A stretch of 18,944 bases of DNA. Source: Oscillospiraceae bacterium. Its GTDB lineage: Bacteria; Bacillota; Clostridia; Oscillospirales; Ruminococcaceae. The notes under the pieces are model-generated. The model was not told where the DNA came from. It saw only the letters and a program-made list of their open reading frames with translations, and ran no database searches. The stretch covers positions 1-18,944 of the forward strand of contig JAFQND010000078.1 in the NCBI GenBank assembly GCA_017396055.1, read 5' to 3'. The position numbers and the translations under genes are program-made. Shown here piece after piece: positions 5,681 through 13,043 of the stretch (its first letter is position 1; every line of letters begins with the position of its first letter).

Positions 5681-5709
5681 TTGCCGTCATGCGAAAAAGC
5701 GACTATAAT
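5681..5709 (+). promoter_or_regulatory. Promoter of the LSm/cold-shock STAND ATPase - HEPN operon
   Basis: TTGCCG (5681-5686), exactly 17 nt, then a perfect TATAAT (5704-5709). The predicted start is near 5716, giving a leader of about 79 nt. It is the only convincing promoter seen between 5605 and 13037, so it probably drives all three genes to the terminator at 14322. Confidence 0.85.
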
Positions 5710-5716
5710 AGGATTA

Positions 5717-5730
5717 GATATGCACATATC
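5717..5730. promoter_or_regulatory. Palindrome at the transcription start, operator candidate
   Basis: GATATG-CA-CATATC is a perfect 6-bp inverted repeat with a 2-nt centre, starting one base after the predicted transcription start. That position is typical of a repressor site, but it could also form the first leader hairpin. No regulator gene adjoins it. A second small inverted repeat, GTACC/GGTAC, lies at 5746-5761. Confidence 0.5.
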
Positions 5731-5778
5731 AGAATACCCGAATCCGTACCGGAAAAGGTACACTCTTTAGTTGCAAGA

Positions 5779-5794
5779 GAGAAAGGAGTTTCTC
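5779..5794 (+). promoter_or_regulatory. Ribosome-site hairpin with GGAG in the loop, next to the ATG
   Basis: GAGAAA (5779-5784) and TTTCTC (5789-5794) are perfectly complementary and enclose exactly GGAG (5785-5788), the Shine-Dalgarno core. The hairpin ends at the base before the ATG at 5795. This ribosome site fixes the start at 5795 rather than at the in-frame TTG at 5771. Confidence 0.6.
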
Positions 5795-8700
5795 ATGGAA
5801 AATTTACGCGAAGATTTTATTCTTGACAATCAGCCCGGTGATTTTATCACTGTTCTGCTGCAAAACGGCGCCGAATGGACCGGAACGATCCTCGACTGGA
5901 ACGAGCGCCGCGTCCGCCTGGAAGTAGACGGCGTTCCCCGTACTGTCAGCTTCAATATCATCGACGGTTATTATCCCGCTGCCCCGGCAGCAGCACAGCC
6001 TGCTCCTGTGCCCGTTCCTGTTCCTGTTCCCGCACCCGCTCCTGCCGCTGAAACAGCCGCTCCCACCGTCACCCCTGCACAGCTCGCTGTAGAGCGGGTC
6101 AGTGCCGCCGAATACCGTATCGCCTTTGACCCCGACCTGGTCAAGGAACAGCTGCGTCTTGCGCCCAATACCATGGAAAAAGAGCGCATTTCCTCGCTCT
6201 TCCAGAGCTTCCTGCGCGCAGATGCCGAAAGCAAAAACGATCCCCTCGCGCTCAAACGCGTCTCCGCAGCTGCCGATAAACTGGCAGAACAATATCCTGA
6301 CCGTCCCCTGACTCAGCGCATTATCGGTGAGATGGCCCTGTACACCGAAAACTGGGAAACCGCCGAAGAATGCTTCTATGCCGCACAGTCCTATGCCCGC
6401 GCCTTTTTTGCCGCTTCCAAGCTGAACAGCGAGGAAAAGATGGCGGAAGATGCCGCCTGTCACCTGCTGGACGAAAAGAAGAAAGAAGCCGACATCATCT
6501 ATACCTATCTGCGAATGGCAGCCAAAGCGGGAGACCTTTCTGTATTCCGTCGTTTTCTGCAGACCGAGGGTGACCGCTTCCCCCAGCTGGCGGCCGATTG
6601 CCTCTGCTGGCTTTTGAACTATCGCGGTCTTCCTCTGCCGGAAGGGGAGAATATCACGGAGCCCACCGTCATTGACGCCATGACCGAGCTTTTTGACCGT
6701 CATTATCCTGATCCCGTCGACTGCCAGATGAAAAAACTGGAGGCAGACGAAAACCCCGACGGCGAACCGGAAGAAGAGAAAGCTGCCGTCTCCAGACCCG
6801 CTCTGCCCACCGGCCTGCAGGGATATCTTTACAATTATACTGCCGAGCGCCGTATCGGACGCGTTGCCAGCCCGGAACGTCCCGACTGGTTCTTCCACTT
6901 CAATCACATCGCTGACCCTCTGCTGAGAGGCATGCTGGAATCCGATCCCAACCGTCCTTATCTGGTCACTTTTGACGTCGGCTCCAACAACCGCGGCGAA
7001 TGCGCCGACAACATCCGTCTCATCGACCCCGCACACCCCTATGACGATACCCTCCGCAGCGGTATTATCAGCAGTTTCTCCGCTCAGCGTCAGAACGGTC
7101 AGATCACCTGCAGTGATCAGAACGATGACGACAAGATCAAAAACTCCGACTGGTTCTTCCACCGCAGCCATATCACCGACACCAGACTGCACGAACTGCT
7201 GGATGCCGAGCCCAACCGTCCCTATAAAGTCACCTTCACCGCGGGTACCAATGACCGCGGTCTCTGCGCCGCCGATATCCGTCTCGCTGACCCGGATCAT
7301 CCTTATGAAGTGATCCGCCGCAGCGGTGCGGTCAGCTGCTATTATCCCCATTATCAGAACGGCAAGATCACCTGCGGCAGTGAGAATGACAGCTATGACT
7401 GTCCCTTCACCTATGACGGCATTGCCGACTCCAAGCTGCGCGATATGCTGGATTCCGATCCCAATCTGCCCTATCTGGTAACCTTTGACATGGGCATCAA
7501 TGACCGCGGTCCCTGTGCGGTCAATATTCGCTTCACCAATCCGGAGCATCCCTATGACAGCACCCGCTGCAGCGGTGTCATCACCCATTTCTATCCCCAC
7601 TATCAGAACGGCAAGATCACCTGCGGCGATCAGATCTATCACTTCCACATCGACGAGATCAGCGATCCCGATCTGCGCAATTACTGCATTATTTTCCCCG
7701 ATGTGGCTGCCCGGAAATTCAGTGTCAGCTTCCTGCTGCGCAAAGTCTATAACGGCAAAGAAAAAGCGGTCGACGTTCAGATGACGGAGCCTTTCTCTGA
7801 AGCTGAACAGAGACTCATCCGCGAACAGACAGCTGCCGAACAGAACCGTCAGGGTATCATCGGCCGATACTTCCCCACCCAGCGCCGCGGCATGATCCAG
7901 GACGGCAGCAGCGACTTTTTCTTCGATCTTGAAGATGTGAGCGACCCCGATCTGCGCCGCTGTCTGGAGCTTCTTCCCGATCCCGCAGCACACCGTTTCC
8001 GTGTGCTTTTTGCGGCTGTCCGCCGCGGTATCCGTACCTGTGCCGAAAACATCCGTCTGAACGGTCCTCTCCCCGAACAGGTAAGCACCCTGCTCGACGA
8101 TGCCGCCGACAGCAAATCCGACACCAACAACCCTTTTCTTCGTCTCTCACCCTGGCCCGAAGGTGAGAGCAGAGACGGCCGATATCTGCTGGCTCAGCAG
8201 GAACGGCTGAAGGGCGATCCTGCCAAAGCGGTCGGTTTCTATCTCGATGCTATCCGGGCTCAGGACCGGCTGGAATCCTCCGTCAGCGATCTGGTCAGTC
8301 TGTTTTTACAGCTTCATCAGGATGAGAATGCCATTCTTCTGATGAAAGCTTTCGAGCGGGTGCTCCCGGAAGAAAAAGCCATCAACAACTGGATCAGCAT
8401 CTATGACCGCACCAAATCCGACGATCCTCTCCTTCTGAGTCTGTTCGAGCGCATTCTGAACACACCTCTCAAGGTCAACACCAAGCTCCACTATCTGGTC
8501 AAAAAGGCACAGCTCCTCACCCGTATGGGACAGCATGAAAATGCCATGGCTGCCTATGCTCAGTGGGAAGCGCTTGCCATGCAGGCCGAGCGGGGCTTTG
8601 TCGGCAACAGCGGGTGGGAACAGGTCGCCATTTCGGACGGTCTGCGCAATCTGATCGCCCGCGGCCGCGCCATCTGTCTGTACCATATGGGCCGCAGAGA

Positions 8701-11533
8701 TGAAGCCCGTGAGATCGCTGCCCGGCTGGCTGCACAGAATCCCGGCGATACCGCTGCACAGCAGATCCTCGCCGGACAGCTGGAACAGATCACCGACGCC
8801 TCCTCTCTCGGCGAACAGGCACAGGATCTTCCTGTATCCGCTTATGAAAACCTCAGCAGCTATGTCAGAGAACTTCTCGACAAGCTTTCTATCCAGAGTG
8901 TTGTCCGTATCAGAAGCATCGAAAATGACAAATTCACCGGCGATATCCAGCAGGCAGGCCGTGATCTGGAAGCCTTTGAAAAATCCATCAGCGGTATTGC
9001 TCCCAAAGCGCGAAGCGACCGCCGTCTGGCAGCCGCAAAGCTGATCCTTCGCTGCCTGCAGCGAAGCGGCAGTGCCGCCTTCCAGGAAAAGGGTCTGGCC
9101 AAATTCAGCGAAAACTACTTCGAGACCATGCTTGGAAGCGGCATGTGCAGCTTTGGCGACGCACAGCTGCAGGAAGGCAGACCTGTACAGGCTATCCGCT
9201 ACAGTTATCTGCAGGCTGTTCCGCTTTTACAGCACGGCACTACCCGCAACCATGACCAGGATCTGGTCAACGCTGTCTGCCGCTACATCACGACCTATTT
9301 CCTCTCGGGTGACCGGCTGCGTGAAATCACCGCCCGTCCCGAAGAGATCGAGCGCTGTACCAGACTTTTCTCGGAACATGAGTGCAGCGACATAAGCGGA
9401 TTCATCCGGGGTCTCTTCTTCCTTCTGGACAACGGTACGCCCCATCGCGATACCATTCTGAAGGCATTGTTCCAGAGTCCCCTGCAGGATAAAGTCGTTT
9501 CTGTACTGCGGGATATCGCACACCTTTCCGGTTTTGCTGCCGAAAACAGCGATGACCTCTTCACTCTGTGGAATCAGGCATCCGACCAGTGGCTGAAAGA
9601 CTACCGTGCCTTCTGCAGCGAATTTTCTACCTCGCGGCTGGACTTTCTCAGTTCTGCCCGCATTGACAGCCTGAAAGGCATCATTGCGCAGGAACAGACT
9701 GCCATGCTTCCCGACGAATCCGATTGCCAGACCCTCAGCGAATTCCTGCGGGTACTGGATCTGTTTGAGCGCTTTACCGCCCTGTCGGAATTTGACCTGC
9801 GTGAACAGACGCTCCGTTCGATCGGTGACCTTTGCCAGAGCCTTTCCTCCCGCATTGAAGGTGTTTCCACCGCTTTTGCCCATGAGACCCTTCTCGGTGC
9901 GGTAAAACTCGCTTCCCAGACCGCTTCCCGTCAGCTGGAGAAGATCTACGACGAAAGCCGTCCCAGCCTTTCATTCACCGCAGACGGCACAGTCAGCCCC
10001 ACTGCCGACGGACGGTTCACCCTTCCTCTGTTTATCGAAAACGGTCCCAACCTGCAGACCGCGGACAATCTTCGCATAACGCTCGAATGTGACGAAGGGG
10101 TACAGCTTCTTCAGGTCGACGGCCTGAAAGGTCATGTCAAAGGCGGCAGCAAGGAGGGCTTCATCGCCTTCTTCTCCTCTGCCGACACAACACTCAACGC
10201 TTTTACCGTCACCGCTGCAGTCACCTATGAATACCGCGAAAGCGGCGCCACCCGTACCGGTGAACTGAAGCAGACCTTCCCCGTTTCTGTCAGCAGCAGT
10301 GCGGCGGTCCACATCAAAAACCCCTTCCGCGCCCATGCGAGCCAGCAGGAAGTCGAAGACCCCAATATGTTCTTCGGCCGTGATAAGGATATCGCCGATA
10401 TCATCAGCATCATCAGCGACGACAGCGGTCAGCTGACTCCCAAAAAGTCGGTTGCTCTCTTCGGCCAGAAGCGCACCGGCAAATCTTCACTGCTCTATCA
10501 TGTCCGCCGCCGTATTCAGAAAGATTTTCCTCAGGCAATACTGCTCGACCTGGGCAGCCTCGGCACCTATGACACCGCCAACAACGATTTCACAAAAGCT
10601 GTCATGGAATCGATCCTTTCAAAGCTGCGGCGCGCCATCCTTCTGGATAAATGCTATGCCGACCTGAAAAAGCTGCTGGAAGAAAATGACCTGAAGATCC
10701 CCTATCAGGAATTCAAGACATCTGCCACCGGCTATGATATCATCTTCAACAGTTTTATGGACAACCTGGACTGGGTCATCGAAAAGAGCGAAGTGCCTTA
10801 TCGGTTTATCATCTTCATCGATGAATTCACCCACCTTTACGGCCATATCCAGCGCGGTACGGTCACCAATCAGTTCCTGCGTTTCTGGCGCGAATCGGTC
10901 CACGATCACAGATGGATCAGTATCATCGTCGGTCAGGACAGCATGGAGACCCTCAAGCGGCAGTACAGCAACGAGCTGGGCGCCACCGCCATGTTCCCGG
11001 TCACCTATCTACGTCCGGAAGATGCCCGTAAGATGATCCAGGTTCCCATCGCCCGTGAAAATCCCGAAGTGACCTTTGACGAAAAGGCTCTGGACCGTCT
11101 GATCGAACTCACCGCCGGCAGCGCATATCTGCTGATGATCCTCTGTGCCGAACTGGTGGATCACCTCAACGAACTCCATCATAACCACGTCATGGTCGCC
11201 CACATCGAACAGCTGGTAAACCGTATCTTTACCAACGGTATCATCACCGGCAGCAATTTCGATCCCCTGTACAATGACGTCAGCTGTCCCGGCGACGACA
11301 GGCGCAAAGAGGATAATTTCACTCTGCTGACTGAGCTGGCGCGCTGTACCCGTCTGGTACCGGCTGTCTCCATCACCCAGCTGAATCCCGAAGGACTCAC
11401 CTCCGAACGGGTCGCAGAACTGCTGCGCGCGCTGGAAGCGAGAGGCGTTGTCAAAGTGGAACAAAACCAGTACAGCATCATTGTCGGGCTGTTCAAAGAA
11501 TGGCTCAACAACCGCTATGGCGAGTCCCTTTGA
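5795..11533 (+). CDS. Giant LSm-TPR-cold-shock-repeat-TPR-STAND/AAA_16 ATPase
   Basis: A 1912-residue protein; I know no named family with this whole architecture. Residues about 4-58 resemble an LSm/Hfq-type barrel (FITVLLQNGAEWTGTI). A Pro/Ala/Val linker (61-95) follows, then a helical TPR-like block (105-305) and an acidic linker (310-335). Five tandem cold-shock-like repeats fill 340-762. A second TPR-like block covers about 789-1000, more helices run to 1380, and a beta-rich domain spans about 1389-1506. The ATPase at about 1515-1850 has FGR (1527-1529), Walker A GQKRTGKSS (1557-1565) and Walker B FIIFIDEF (1671-1678); the C-terminus looks like a winged helix. There is no signal peptide or membrane segment. 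RNA or ssDNA binding plus ATP-dependent switching is inferred. The next gene begins 19 nt later. The frame is intact and codon use matches the neighbours. Confidence 0.85.
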   Translation: MENLREDFILDNQPGDFITVLLQNGAEWTGTILDWNERRVRLEVDGVPRTVSFNIIDGYYPAAPAAAQPAPVPVPVPVPAPAPAAETAAPTVTPAQLAVERVSAAEYRIAFDPDLVKEQLRLAPNTMEKERISSLFQSFLRADAESKNDPLALKRVSAAADKLAEQYPDRPLTQRIIGEMALYTENWETAEECFYAAQSYARAFFAASKLNSEEKMAEDAACHLLDEKKKEADIIYTYLRMAAKAGDLSVFRRFLQTEGDRFPQLAADCLCWLLNYRGLPLPEGENITEPTVIDAMTELFDRHYPDPVDCQMKKLEADENPDGEPEEEKAAVSRPALPTGLQGYLYNYTAERRIGRVASPERPDWFFHFNHIADPLLRGMLESDPNRPYLVTFDVGSNNRGECADNIRLIDPAHPYDDTLRSGIISSFSAQRQNGQITCSDQNDDDKIKNSDWFFHRSHITDTRLHELLDAEPNRPYKVTFTAGTNDRGLCAADIRLADPDHPYEVIRRSGAVSCYYPHYQNGKITCGSENDSYDCPFTYDGIADSKLRDMLDSDPNLPYLVTFDMGINDRGPCAVNIRFTNPEHPYDSTRCSGVITHFYPHYQNGKITCGDQIYHFHIDEISDPDLRNYCIIFPDVAARKFSVSFLLRKVYNGKEKAVDVQMTEPFSEAEQRLIREQTAAEQNRQGIIGRYFPTQRRGMIQDGSSDFFFDLEDVSDPDLRRCLELLPDPAAHRFRVLFAAVRRGIRTCAENIRLNGPLPEQVSTLLDDAADSKSDTNNPFLRLSPWPEGESRDGRYLLAQQERLKGDPAKAVGFYLDAIRAQDRLESSVSDLVSLFLQLHQDENAILLMKAFERVLPEEKAINNWISIYDRTKSDDPLLLSLFERILNTPLKVNTKLHYLVKKAQLLTRMGQHENAMAAYAQWEALAMQAERGFVGNSGWEQVAISDGLRNLIARGRAICLYHMGRRDEAREIAARLAAQNPGDTAAQQILAGQLEQITDASSLGEQAQDLPVSAYENLSSYVRELLDKLSIQSVVRIRSIENDKFTGDIQQAGRDLEAFEKSISGIAPKARSDRRLAAAKLILRCLQRSGSAAFQEKGLAKFSENYFETMLGSGMCSFGDAQLQEGRPVQAIRYSYLQAVPLLQHGTTRNHDQDLVNAVCRYITTYFLSGDRLREITARPEEIERCTRLFSEHECSDISGFIRGLFFLLDNGTPHRDTILKALFQSPLQDKVVSVLRDIAHLSGFAAENSDDLFTLWNQASDQWLKDYRAFCSEFSTSRLDFLSSARIDSLKGIIAQEQTAMLPDESDCQTLSEFLRVLDLFERFTALSEFDLREQTLRSIGDLCQSLSSRIEGVSTAFAHETLLGAVKLASQTASRQLEKIYDESRPSLSFTADGTVSPTADGRFTLPLFIENGPNLQTADNLRITLECDEGVQLLQVDGLKGHVKGGSKEGFIAFFSSADTTLNAFTVTAAVTYEYRESGATRTGELKQTFPVSVSSSAAVHIKNPFRAHASQQEVEDPNMFFGRDKDIADIISIISDDSGQLTPKKSVALFGQKRTGKSSLLYHVRRRIQKDFPQAILLDLGSLGTYDTANNDFTKAVMESILSKLRRAILLDKCYADLKKLLEENDLKIPYQEFKTSATGYDIIFNSFMDNLDWVIEKSEVPYRFIIFIDEFTHLYGHIQRGTVTNQFLRFWRESVHDHRWISIIVGQDSMETLKRQYSNELGATAMFPVTYLRPEDARKMIQVPIARENPEVTFDEKALDRLIELTAGSAYLLMILCAELVDHLNELHHNHVMVAHIEQLVNRIFTNGIITGSNFDPLYNDVSCPGDDRRKEDNFTLLTELARCTRLVPAVSITQLNPEGLTSERVAELLRALEARGVVKVEQNQYSIIVGLFKEWLNNRYGESL
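6812..8080 (+). repeat. Five tandem cold-shock-domain-like repeats within the giant ATPase
   Basis: Repeats start near residues 340, 422, 510, 593 and 686, about 82-93 residues apart. Each follows the cold-shock order: an RNP1-like site (RRIGRV, QNGQIT, QNGKIT, QNGKIT, RRGMIQ), an RNP2-like site (WFFHF, WFFHR, PFTYD, YHFHI, FFFDL), a D(P/S/T)xLR loop, and in most a VTF...NxRG...NIRL end matching the last strands of CspA-type proteins. The aromatic RNP1 residues are largely lost, so ligand preference may differ from CspA. Repeats 3 and 4 share a nearly identical 36-nt stretch (7343-7378 and 7592-7627). Confidence 0.75.
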
Positions 11534-11552
11534 TACCGGAAAGGAGAGCATC

Positions 11553-13043
11553 ATGAATAATATCTTTCAGATCGGCAATCAGGTTTCCGGTCCTGCCTTT
11601 ATCGGACGAAAAGCCCTGGTTGAAGATATCCGCAAGCGTGTCATCTATAACGGGACCCGCTGCACCCTTTCTTTTGTCGGTCTTCCCCGCATAGGAAAAT
11701 CCTCCCTCGTTGCCAATGCGCTTGACCCTGCTTTGCTCCGGGAAGCCGGCATCGTCTATGTCTTCACCAGCATCAGCAGCCACGAGAGCTTTGAAACGCT
11801 CTGGCAGAGCATTGTCGCCAGCATATGGCGTCAGCTGAAAATGATGGGGCTGGAGGATGAAATCGTCACGATGGCATATGAAGAATATACCATGCAGCCG
11901 CCGATTTATGCCATGATCAAAGAGCCGCTGGAATTCTTCTTTGAAGCGATCAAGAAAAACCTCAACACCCGCATCGTGCTGGTACTGGATGAATTCGACA
12001 AAGCCGCAGAGATCTTCCTCGGAAAACGGCACTACTTCGAGTTTATCCGCGATATTTCTTCCAAGACCTGCTACAGCATCTCCACCATCACCATCTCCCG
12101 CCGGCAGCTGATCAATATCGAGGCCGATGCCTACGGAAACTCCACCTTCCAGCATATTTTCGACTCCATTCAGGTACATGGCTTCAACGATGCCGACATG
12201 GAGGAATACTGGAATATCTTTGACCGGGAGGGCGCTTTCCTTTCCGATGAAAACCGTGAAGCCCTTGCCCATTATGCCGGACGGTCGCCTTACCTGCTTT
12301 CCATCTTCGGCAGCAATCTGTGCGAACAGATCAATCGCGGCAGCTCCCCCGACGTCCATGCAGTCTATTACGAAAAGGCTGTCAATATCCGCAACTATTT
12401 CGACTCCATCGTTCATCAGATGCAGCGGGACGAATCGCTCAACAAGCTGCTGCAGCTGGTGGTGGGTCCCAAATACGATCTGAAGGCCAGCGACCTTGAC
12501 TGGTACATCGGCGCCGGCTATATCGAAGTTGCGGCCGACGGCAGCTATTATGTCATCTCGGAAAGCTGTACCAGACGATTCCGTGAGCTGAGCGTAGAAA
12601 TGCCCATCTGGCCCATCGTCATGGACCGTGAAAAACGGCTCAAAGTCATGCTTGACCGCGCCATGAAAGACATTCTCGGCAGCGACTGGATGTACCGCTG
12701 CCGTCTGGATGAAAATCTTTGTGCGTTTGTCGATTTTTCTGCGGCAGACCAGAATATCACCAGAGAATGGAAATACTACCATATTGCCAGCTCTCTTCTG
12801 GATGTGCTTTCTCTGGGTGATGTTGTCAAGTTTATTCGTTTCTATTGGGACCAGGGTATCAGAGCCTATTTCAACAATCTCGATTATTCACAGTGGAAAG
12901 ACGGCTTTGACCTGCTGCAGCGCGCACGTAACGCCCTTGCCCACAACCATGAAGATTATCTGCAGGAAAGAGATATCCACGCTGCCGAAATGTTCTGTCT
13001 CAGACTGGCAGAAACACTTGATCAAGGAGAACAACCATGCTGA
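11553..13043 (+). CDS. STAND/AAA_16-type ATPase with C-terminal Swt1-like HEPN domain
   Basis: A 496-residue protein. The N-terminal ATPase has FIGR (16-19), Walker A GLPRIGKSS (43-51), Walker B LVLDEFD (143-149) and a sensor-like STITISRRQL (177-186). A winged-helix-like segment covers about 300-345. Residues about 352-490 are helical and match the Swt1-type HEPN pattern: an opening helix ending near GSDWM, then RARNALAH, where Arg459-x4-His464 is the catalytic motif of HEPN RNases. The probable role is an ATP-gated RNase effector acting with the upstream ATPase. The ATG at 11553 has AAGGAG (11541-11546) 6 nt before it; the frame is open to 11448, but that part lies in the previous gene. The 3' end overlaps the mannosidase start by 7 nt. 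ATPase firm; HEPN call good but needs profile or structure support. Confidence 0.85.
   Translation: MNNIFQIGNQVSGPAFIGRKALVEDIRKRVIYNGTRCTLSFVGLPRIGKSSLVANALDPALLREAGIVYVFTSISSHESFETLWQSIVASIWRQLKMMGLEDEIVTMAYEEYTMQPPIYAMIKEPLEFFFEAIKKNLNTRIVLVLDEFDKAAEIFLGKRHYFEFIRDISSKTCYSISTITISRRQLINIEADAYGNSTFQHIFDSIQVHGFNDADMEEYWNIFDREGAFLSDENREALAHYAGRSPYLLSIFGSNLCEQINRGSSPDVHAVYYEKAVNIRNYFDSIVHQMQRDESLNKLLQLVVGPKYDLKASDLDWYIGAGYIEVAADGSYYVISESCTRRFRELSVEMPIWPIVMDREKRLKVMLDRAMKDILGSDWMYRCRLDENLCAFVDFSAADQNITREWKYYHIASSLLDVLSLGDVVKFIRFYWDQGIRAYFNNLDYSQWKDGFDLLQRARNALAHNHEDYLQERDIHAAEMFCLRLAETLDQGEQPC

Follow-up and report, generated by a model that had tools for sequence, protein, structure and literature searches.

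What does a pair of adjacent ATPase genes, the second of which ends in a putative HEPN ribonuclease (RNase) domain, do in an Oscillospiraceae bacterium? The two genes, here called P1 and P2, lie on JAFQND010000078.1, the 18,944-nucleotide (nt) stretch of DNA that was analysed as a whole (the window), which is one contig of a genome 67.7% complete and in 351 contigs. As the original prediction had it, two ATPase genes stand 19 nt apart. Both have an AAAGGAG ribosome-binding (Shine-Dalgarno) sequence. The answer for which the evidence argues, and to which as a whole we give about an even chance, is that P1 is a nucleic-acid sensor that licenses the HEPN RNase of P2 by STAND assembly, probably for abortive infection.

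5782-5788 (+): Shine-Dalgarno AAAGGAG of P1, from sequence
5795-11533 (+): P1, whole gene, 1912 amino acids (aa): small barrel, TPR-like part, five cold-shock domains, helical repeats, probable beta-sandwich, nSTAND ATPase
11540-11546 (+): Shine-Dalgarno AAAGGAG of P2, from sequence
11553-13043 (+): P2, whole gene, 496 aa: STAND-type ATPase with C-terminal Swt1-like HEPN

A joint system would be doubtful if the two genes were rarely adjacent in relatives. Queries with P2 only found P2 in 16 genomes: the window's own, G114, G771 (locus L004, labelled Oscillospiraceae), G772 (L005, labelled Succinivibrionaceae), G773 (L006, labelled Schwartzia), four more of the G772 family and seven more of the G773 family, so that, with G772 and G773 included, the carriers number 5 of 56 and 8 of 189 genomes of these families, respectively. 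P1 is found directly upstream of P2, on the same strand, in 15 of the 16, and in the 16th (G773) the contig ends inside P2. The gaps range from -38 to +36 nt, mostly measured from the starts of the longest open reading frames; in L024 and L034 the contig holds only part of P1. The pair is rare (2/295 genomes of the order, 1/299 of the phylum and 1/197 of the family, each count including the window's own genome). Among 349 genomes of its phylum, the distant-relative query A4 hit G772 alone.

The P2 proteins of different loci are as little as 17% identical, and P1 and P2 distances correlate (r = 0.93; 0.91 without L004 and L026; Mantel p 1e-4 in both cases), as co-inherited genes should. Linkage and common ancestry account for part of this correlation, which to that extent counts against a functional interpretation. 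Flanking frames of at least 100 aa were compared all-against-all among 15 loci, and 3 of the 105 locus pairs have a frame in common: window/L004, L026/L027 and L034/L058, the last being the pair with the RNA-dependent RNA polymerase (RdRP) described below. L035 has no such frame and the flanks of L004, L007 and L029 are short, so that sharing may be missed there. No gene beyond P1 and P2 is common to more than two of the 15 loci. Synteny alone was rejected on the 3/105 count as the cause of the adjacency. Since the pair stays together in distantly related bacteria, P1 and P2 probably function as a unit.

P2 is a STAND-type ATPase. Its AlphaFold model has a predicted local distance difference test score (pLDDT) of 93, with fold matches including Sso1545, CED-4-, NLR- and Cdc6-like proteins. 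Pfam gives NPHP3_N above the cut-off (26.1 against 24.8) and nSTAND2 just below it (23.3 against 24). By Pfam, the fold of P2 and the conserved motifs, both P1 and P2 belong to the STAND/Cdc6-like P-loop group with Walker A and Walker B.

11679-11702 (+): P2 Walker A, GLPRIGKS (residues 43-50); G43, G48 and K49 invariant in 15/15 paired P2s
11988-11999 (+): P2 Walker B, DEFD (146-149); invariant in a 99-row alignment, exact DEFD in 13/15 paired P2s
12606-13028 (+): P2 C-terminal helical domain, Swt1-like HEPN (352-492); helices in the model, relatives match PF18731 there
12927-12944 (+): HEPN motif R-x4-H, RNALAH (R459, H464)

The C-terminal domain is all-helical with high pLDDT in the model, with R-x4-H just ahead of the last helix. 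R459 and H464 are invariant in all 15 P2s from P1-P2 loci and each is conserved in at least 90% of 99 homologues, in agreement with the R-x4-6-H pattern of HEPN RNases. Pfam HEPN_Swt1 (PF18731) matches 12 of the 25 P2 homologues scanned at E <= 0.01, and five rescanned relatives exceed its cut-off over residues 362-496; because these matches cover the same region, the tail of the window's P2 is assigned as Swt1-like HEPN. Paired P2s fall below the cut-off in L030 (E 0.0019), L007 (E 0.00076) and L035 (E 5e-5), and those of L005 and L028 gave no match. The fold matches of P2 span only residues 1-349, the ATPase filling the list, and have no bearing either way on the tail. At least 70 extra C-terminal residues are present in 21 of the 99 P2 homologues; the extension (94-143 aa, mostly in P0008-P0028) looks OB/S1-like by eye only. 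A transfer of cold-shock domains to the C-terminus of these long P2s was considered and is unsupported, a profile comparison finding no similarity (probability 0.2%).

P1 (1093-1969 aa where complete) is a larger and more composite protein, in which the TPR-like scaffold and the P-loop ATPase that had been read from the window are borne out by the model and by Pfam, respectively.

5840-5950 (+): four-strand small beta-barrel (LSm/SH3/KOW-like, family undecided), residues 16-52; model secondary structure
6074-6742 (+): TPR-like helical repeats, residues 94-316; model, TPR structures among the matches, middling Z
6818-7021 (+): cold-shock domain 1 (342-409)
7055-7285 (+): cold-shock domain 2 (421-497); Pfam CSD 422-496 below cut-off, region of two extra repeats compared with close relatives
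7319-7534 (+): cold-shock domain 3 (509-580)
7568-7783 (+): cold-shock domain 4 (592-663)
7847-8059 (+): cold-shock domain 5 (685-755)
8666-8773 (+): TPR match (958-993); Pfam TPR_19 E 0.00099, below cut-off
9956-10294 (+): probable Ig (immunoglobulin)-like beta-sandwich preceding the ATPase, residues about 1388-1500; sequence pattern in an alignment only
10349-11143 (+): nSTAND ATPase (1519-1783); Pfam nSTAND1 E 2.9e-8, above cut-off

Walker A of this ATPase is GQKRTGKS (1557-1564) and Walker B is DEF (1676-1678). The N-terminus had been called LSm-like. A small barrel with four strands in residues 17-52 (pLDDT about 80) is indeed predicted, and the segment can be aligned in all 13 rows (those of 12 P1s and of one stand-alone form, see below) with one invariant Gly and identities down to 9%, but the LSm family is not established: a profile from 13 such N-termini had no significant match in the PDB, and its 20 weak matches include KOW domains of Spt5 and NusG (E 0.07 and 0.11), RimP-type (0.44) and LSm5 (0.8) as well as unrelated proteins. 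Of the folds named for the two proteins, those of the cold-shock domains and the Swt1-HEPN tail are supported. Taken together with the adjacency of the genes, the two outcomes that would have refuted the original prediction were in the main not obtained. The five cold-shock domains form a repeated array of the OB-type cold-shock fold.

The array varies. A cold-shock profile (seeded with the window's five repeats and extended in three rounds at E < 1e-3, so that the E-values of the included domains are not independent) finds three domains each in P0101-P0105 and L004 (6/6; the P1 of L004 is nearly the same protein as P0104), compared with five in the window, where the array is a lineage-specific expansion. 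DNA identity is 74-83% over the stretches common to repeats 2-4 (array at window 6818-8059), which points to internal duplication. More distant P1s (L007, L028, L029, L030, L031 and L032) have one or two such domains. Altogether at least one is present in 8 of 13 readable P1s, a set from which L024 and L034 were dropped (P1 cut by the contig end) and in which L007 was read without its N-terminus.

In STAND proteins the ligand-driven assembly of the ATPase clusters effector domains, and HEPN RNases, marked by R-x4-6-H, are active as dimers; a sensor-effector model follows from these two properties. We propose that P1 is the sensor-regulator and P2 the effector of a co-inherited two-gene STAND/HEPN module. 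The small barrel, the TPR-like scaffold and (here) the five cold-shock domains of P1 would bind nucleic acid, most likely, we infer, single-stranded RNA, and on binding the C-terminal nSTAND ATPase would change state or oligomerise. The STAND ATPase of P2 may then pair or co-assemble with that of P1, so that the Swt1-like HEPN tails are brought together and the R-x4-H active sites of the joined tails would cleave RNA. The likely outcome would be shutdown of the cell or of the invader, i.e. abortive infection. An RNA-sensing protein that switches on a HEPN RNase through ATP-dependent assembly, as suggested earlier, fits this anatomy. What the analysis establishes is the pairing of the genes, their domains and the conservation of their motifs; that RNA is the trigger, that the two ATPases touch, that P2 cuts RNA and that the purpose is defensive are inferred.

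Several results weigh against this proposal. RNA sensing through cold-shock domains cannot be general across P1s, because the profile finds no clear domain in 5 of the 13 readable ones (L005, L025, L026, L027 and L035, the last with weak CSD matches in Pfam, E 0.08, and PADLOC, E 0.0015). The P2 of L032 has GLPGIGKD as Walker A (Asp for Ser/Thr) and EEFD for DEFD. The HEPN claim stands on the invariant R-x4-H and on the relatives that match PF18731, but the window's own P2 has no match to this family at E <= 1.

A role in defence, which the original prediction had in view, has thin support, from one PADLOC PDC-M34B model that matches 12 of the 25 P2 homologues scanned (best E 9.7e-12), from the patchy distribution, from the STAND/HEPN content and from the RdRP module that two loci adjoin and another copy of which lies near AbiL-type genes. 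The neighbourhood speaks against it: the window genes around the pair encode NanE, ROK, an M28 peptidase, a CAP/choline-binding protein, a GH125 mannosidase and MATE (sugar catabolism, peptidase, transport), and of ten genes that flank the pair at seven other loci, one matched PADLOC, weakly. Nor did the window's P2 match PDC-M34B at E <= 1, or the window's P1 and five other P1s any PDC-M34 model. No P2 relative was found in 50,697 phage records or in 72,556 plasmid records, the latter also with two homologues as queries (P1 was not searched in either set), and no relative of P2 or P1 was found in IMG/VR in scans that see only sequences with one of two short motifs. Mobile carriage of the pair, considered as a candidate, was rejected on these searches. 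All in all, we place defence proper, within the sensor-effector proposal, at somewhat better than even. An IS3-type transposase gene (rve, HTH_21) lies just downstream of the pair in L029 (L029:6938-7648).

The N-terminal part of P1 also occurs by itself, which suggests a role apart from the effector and is likewise unfavourable to the proposal, since two species of the window's genus keep this part without ATPase or P2. In G618 it is a protein of 631 aa and in G720 an open frame of 562 aa (approximately L042:7909-9804 and L043:8043-9560), in both cases preceded by a CAP/choline-binding gene of the kind that stands ahead of P1 in the window. No ATPase part follows within the stretch read, and a search of the G618 and G720 genomes for P2 found none. 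P0106-P0110 are of this stand-alone kind by length and content, with three cold-shock domains each (5/5). The simpler history would be that this genus lost the ATPase and P2, because full-length P1s occur in remote lineages. The frame is intact and 67% identical between G618 and P0107, which suggests that the stand-alone form is still useful.

Such a free-standing module would also suit an alternative that we consider unlikely yet serious, namely that the pair is a chromosomal host module for RNA processing or stress response, in which P1, an RNA-binding scaffold, would bring the P2 RNase to certain transcripts of the host, for example under cold or nutrient stress. The metabolic neighbours on both sides of the window pair speak for it, as do the order M28 peptidase - CAP - P1 - P2 - GH125 that is kept in L004, the overlap of the P2 stop with the GH125 start and the lack of any mobility sign in the sets of phage, plasmid and viral sequences that were screened. 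A housekeeping module would be expected to be distributed more regularly, and against this expectation the pair is patchy and as rare as given above, yet it occurs, differently flanked, in two further bacterial families. Two genes of which the second has a conserved RNase motif recall toxin-antitoxin pairs, among which HEPN toxins are known (e.g. HEPN-MNT); P1 would keep the P2 RNase inactive, its loss or change would free P2, and sensing would be secondary. We regard this as distinctly improbable: P1 is very large, with an ATPase of its own and variable nucleic-acid-binding domains, unlike simple antitoxins, and both ATPases are conserved. Least probable of these alternatives, and very unlikely in our judgement, is a pair of ORC/Cdc6/TnsC-like ATPases acting on DNA, the HEPN tail being structural. 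A structural domain would hardly account for the R-x4-H that is invariant in 15 of 15 P2s, and DNA metabolism is no better served by flanks in which no third gene recurs in more than two of the 15 loci.

The sensor-effector proposal has a possible extension in the G773 family, where the pair adjoins a cellular-type RdRP gene in two genomes (PF05183, E 2e-11 and 4e-17, above cut-off; DFDGD motif).

L034:1515-4976; L058:5859-9206 (also L028:2-2506): RdRP genes beside P1-P2, on the basis of PF05183 and DFDGD
L034:404-1552; L058:9237-10334; L053:8768-9832; L054:7226-8323: RdRP partner genes, 347-385 aa, directly after the RdRP
L055:7254-8318; L056:7651-8745; L050:3129-4286; L057:6664-7707: further RdRP partner genes

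The RdRP is present in 8 of the 189 genomes of this family, with DFDGD and the partner gene in 8/8 (one copy, L057, is split in two frames), and thus RdRP and partner are a conserved two-gene module. An order-level search (168 genomes) found six carriers, all among these eight. The gene after the two pair-adjoining RdRPs encodes 365-382 aa, and neither of these two copies, when scanned, matched Pfam. L034 has the order P1-P2-RdRP-partner: 9 nt separate P2 from the longest RdRP frame, and RdRP and partner overlap. In L028/L058 RdRP-partner is followed after 1.15 kb by P1-P2. RdRP and P2 are carried together by three genomes and adjoin in two (hypergeometric p 0.0026 for 8 and 8 among 189, with genomes treated as independent, though they are not). 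The two associations look independent, because the RdRPs are only 41% and their P2s 24% identical. Common residence in variable islands is an alternative, since another copy of the module (L054) lies about 4.5 kb from AbiLi/AbiLii-type genes (L054:853-2764; PADLOC E 1e-57 and 1e-12).

At six of the eight RdRP loci neither P1 nor P2 was found on the stretch read, some of the stretches being short. RdRP and partner, two copies each, had no match in PADLOC, a further point against defence, and neither matched a polymerase among PDB sequences. No RdRP was found in 54 Succinivibrionaceae genomes, a negative that says little for want of a positive control. On fifteen viral contigs there are distant relatives of the RdRP (22-27% identity), but no P1, P2 or RdRP partner was found on the stretches examined (E 1e-3). 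As a long shot, the pair may be the core cassette of an RNA-triggered immunity (a small-barrel/TPR/cold-shock nSTAND sensor and a STAND-HEPN effector) to which some bacteria add a QDE-1/RDR-like RdRP and its partner, copying foreign RNA into a signal that keeps the RNase on, in parallel to RdRP amplification in eukaryotic RNA silencing. If the proposal holds, the association in two genomes would open to test the question of whether RNA-templated RNA synthesis serves bacteria in defence.

How does the pair compare with described systems? In AVAST (Avs) systems a single STAND protein combines an effector domain with sensor repeats. The STAND ATPase fold is common to Avs, to animal and plant STAND immune ATPases and to our pair (Avs3, CED-4, Apaf-1 and plant resistosomes are among the structure matches of P2), whereas no effector domain is recognised on the sensor P1 (Pfam finds no effector family, though its silence does not prove absence) and the sensor modules of P1 lie N-terminal to its ATPase. 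PDC-M34, a candidate defence system in PADLOC, is similar through the M34B matches to P2 homologues and dissimilar in that neither the window's P2 nor any of the six P1s tested gives a match; a search of the open-access literature found no paper with this term. Swt1-like HEPN linked with STAND-ATPase, TPR and S1, a fusion of Swt1-like HEPN to an AAA+ ATPase (Ava_2192), and bacterial proteins that join HEPN and STAND, some with cold-shock-like OB folds, are described in parts of Anantharaman et al. 2013 (PMC3710099) that make no mention of a two-gene operon of the present kind. To judge from those parts, these proteins share with ours the STAND ATPase with HEPN Rx4-6H, RNA-binding OB folds (S1, cold-shock-like), TPRs and a proposed conflict role, but are single-protein fusions, while here the P1 sensor and the P2 effector are two conserved neighbouring genes, each with an ATPase. 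CoCoNuT, as described in sections of PMC11090510, has an AAA-class NTPase, cold-shock and Ig-like domains, HEPN RNases in some operons and a predicted RNA target. The NTPase with cold-shock and Ig-like domains and the HEPN RNase are alike; unlike P1 and P2, which match nSTAND/STAND, CoCoNuTs in those sections have a McrB GTPase, coiled coils and McrC, and no McrB or McrC Pfam match was found in P1, P2 or ten window neighbours.

The original prediction knew of no described system with this pairing, and a two-ATPase operon of this build was indeed not found in searches of the open-access literature aimed at it, most subscription papers lying outside that literature. The parts are in print and the two-gene, two-ATPase arrangement appears to be new. 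Should the proposal hold, P1-P2 would be a two-protein STAND immune switch with sensor modules that range between species from none detected to five cold-shock domains, a natural series for how STAND ATPases read RNA. Bacterial STAND-ATPase/Swt1-HEPN proteins, on which no experiment was met in the literature surveyed, would thereby gain a role.

Transcription and translation signals complete the description of the locus.

5681-5709 (+): sigma-70-like promoter candidate, TTGCCG-17-TATAAT, 10/12 match, 86 nt upstream of the P1 ATG

This site is the best one listed, but the designation as a strong promoter is not upheld, as the seven promoter-like sites of the region are not above the level of shuffled sequence (5.3, standard deviation 2.2). 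At the other end the P2 stop overlaps the start of the GH125 alpha-mannosidase gene (ATGCTGA, window 13037-13043), and hence P1, P2 and GH125 may be translated as one operon in the window. In L032 a gene of FtsZ C-terminal-like type (PF12327, E 3e-11; L032:9925-12327) begins 12 nt after P2.
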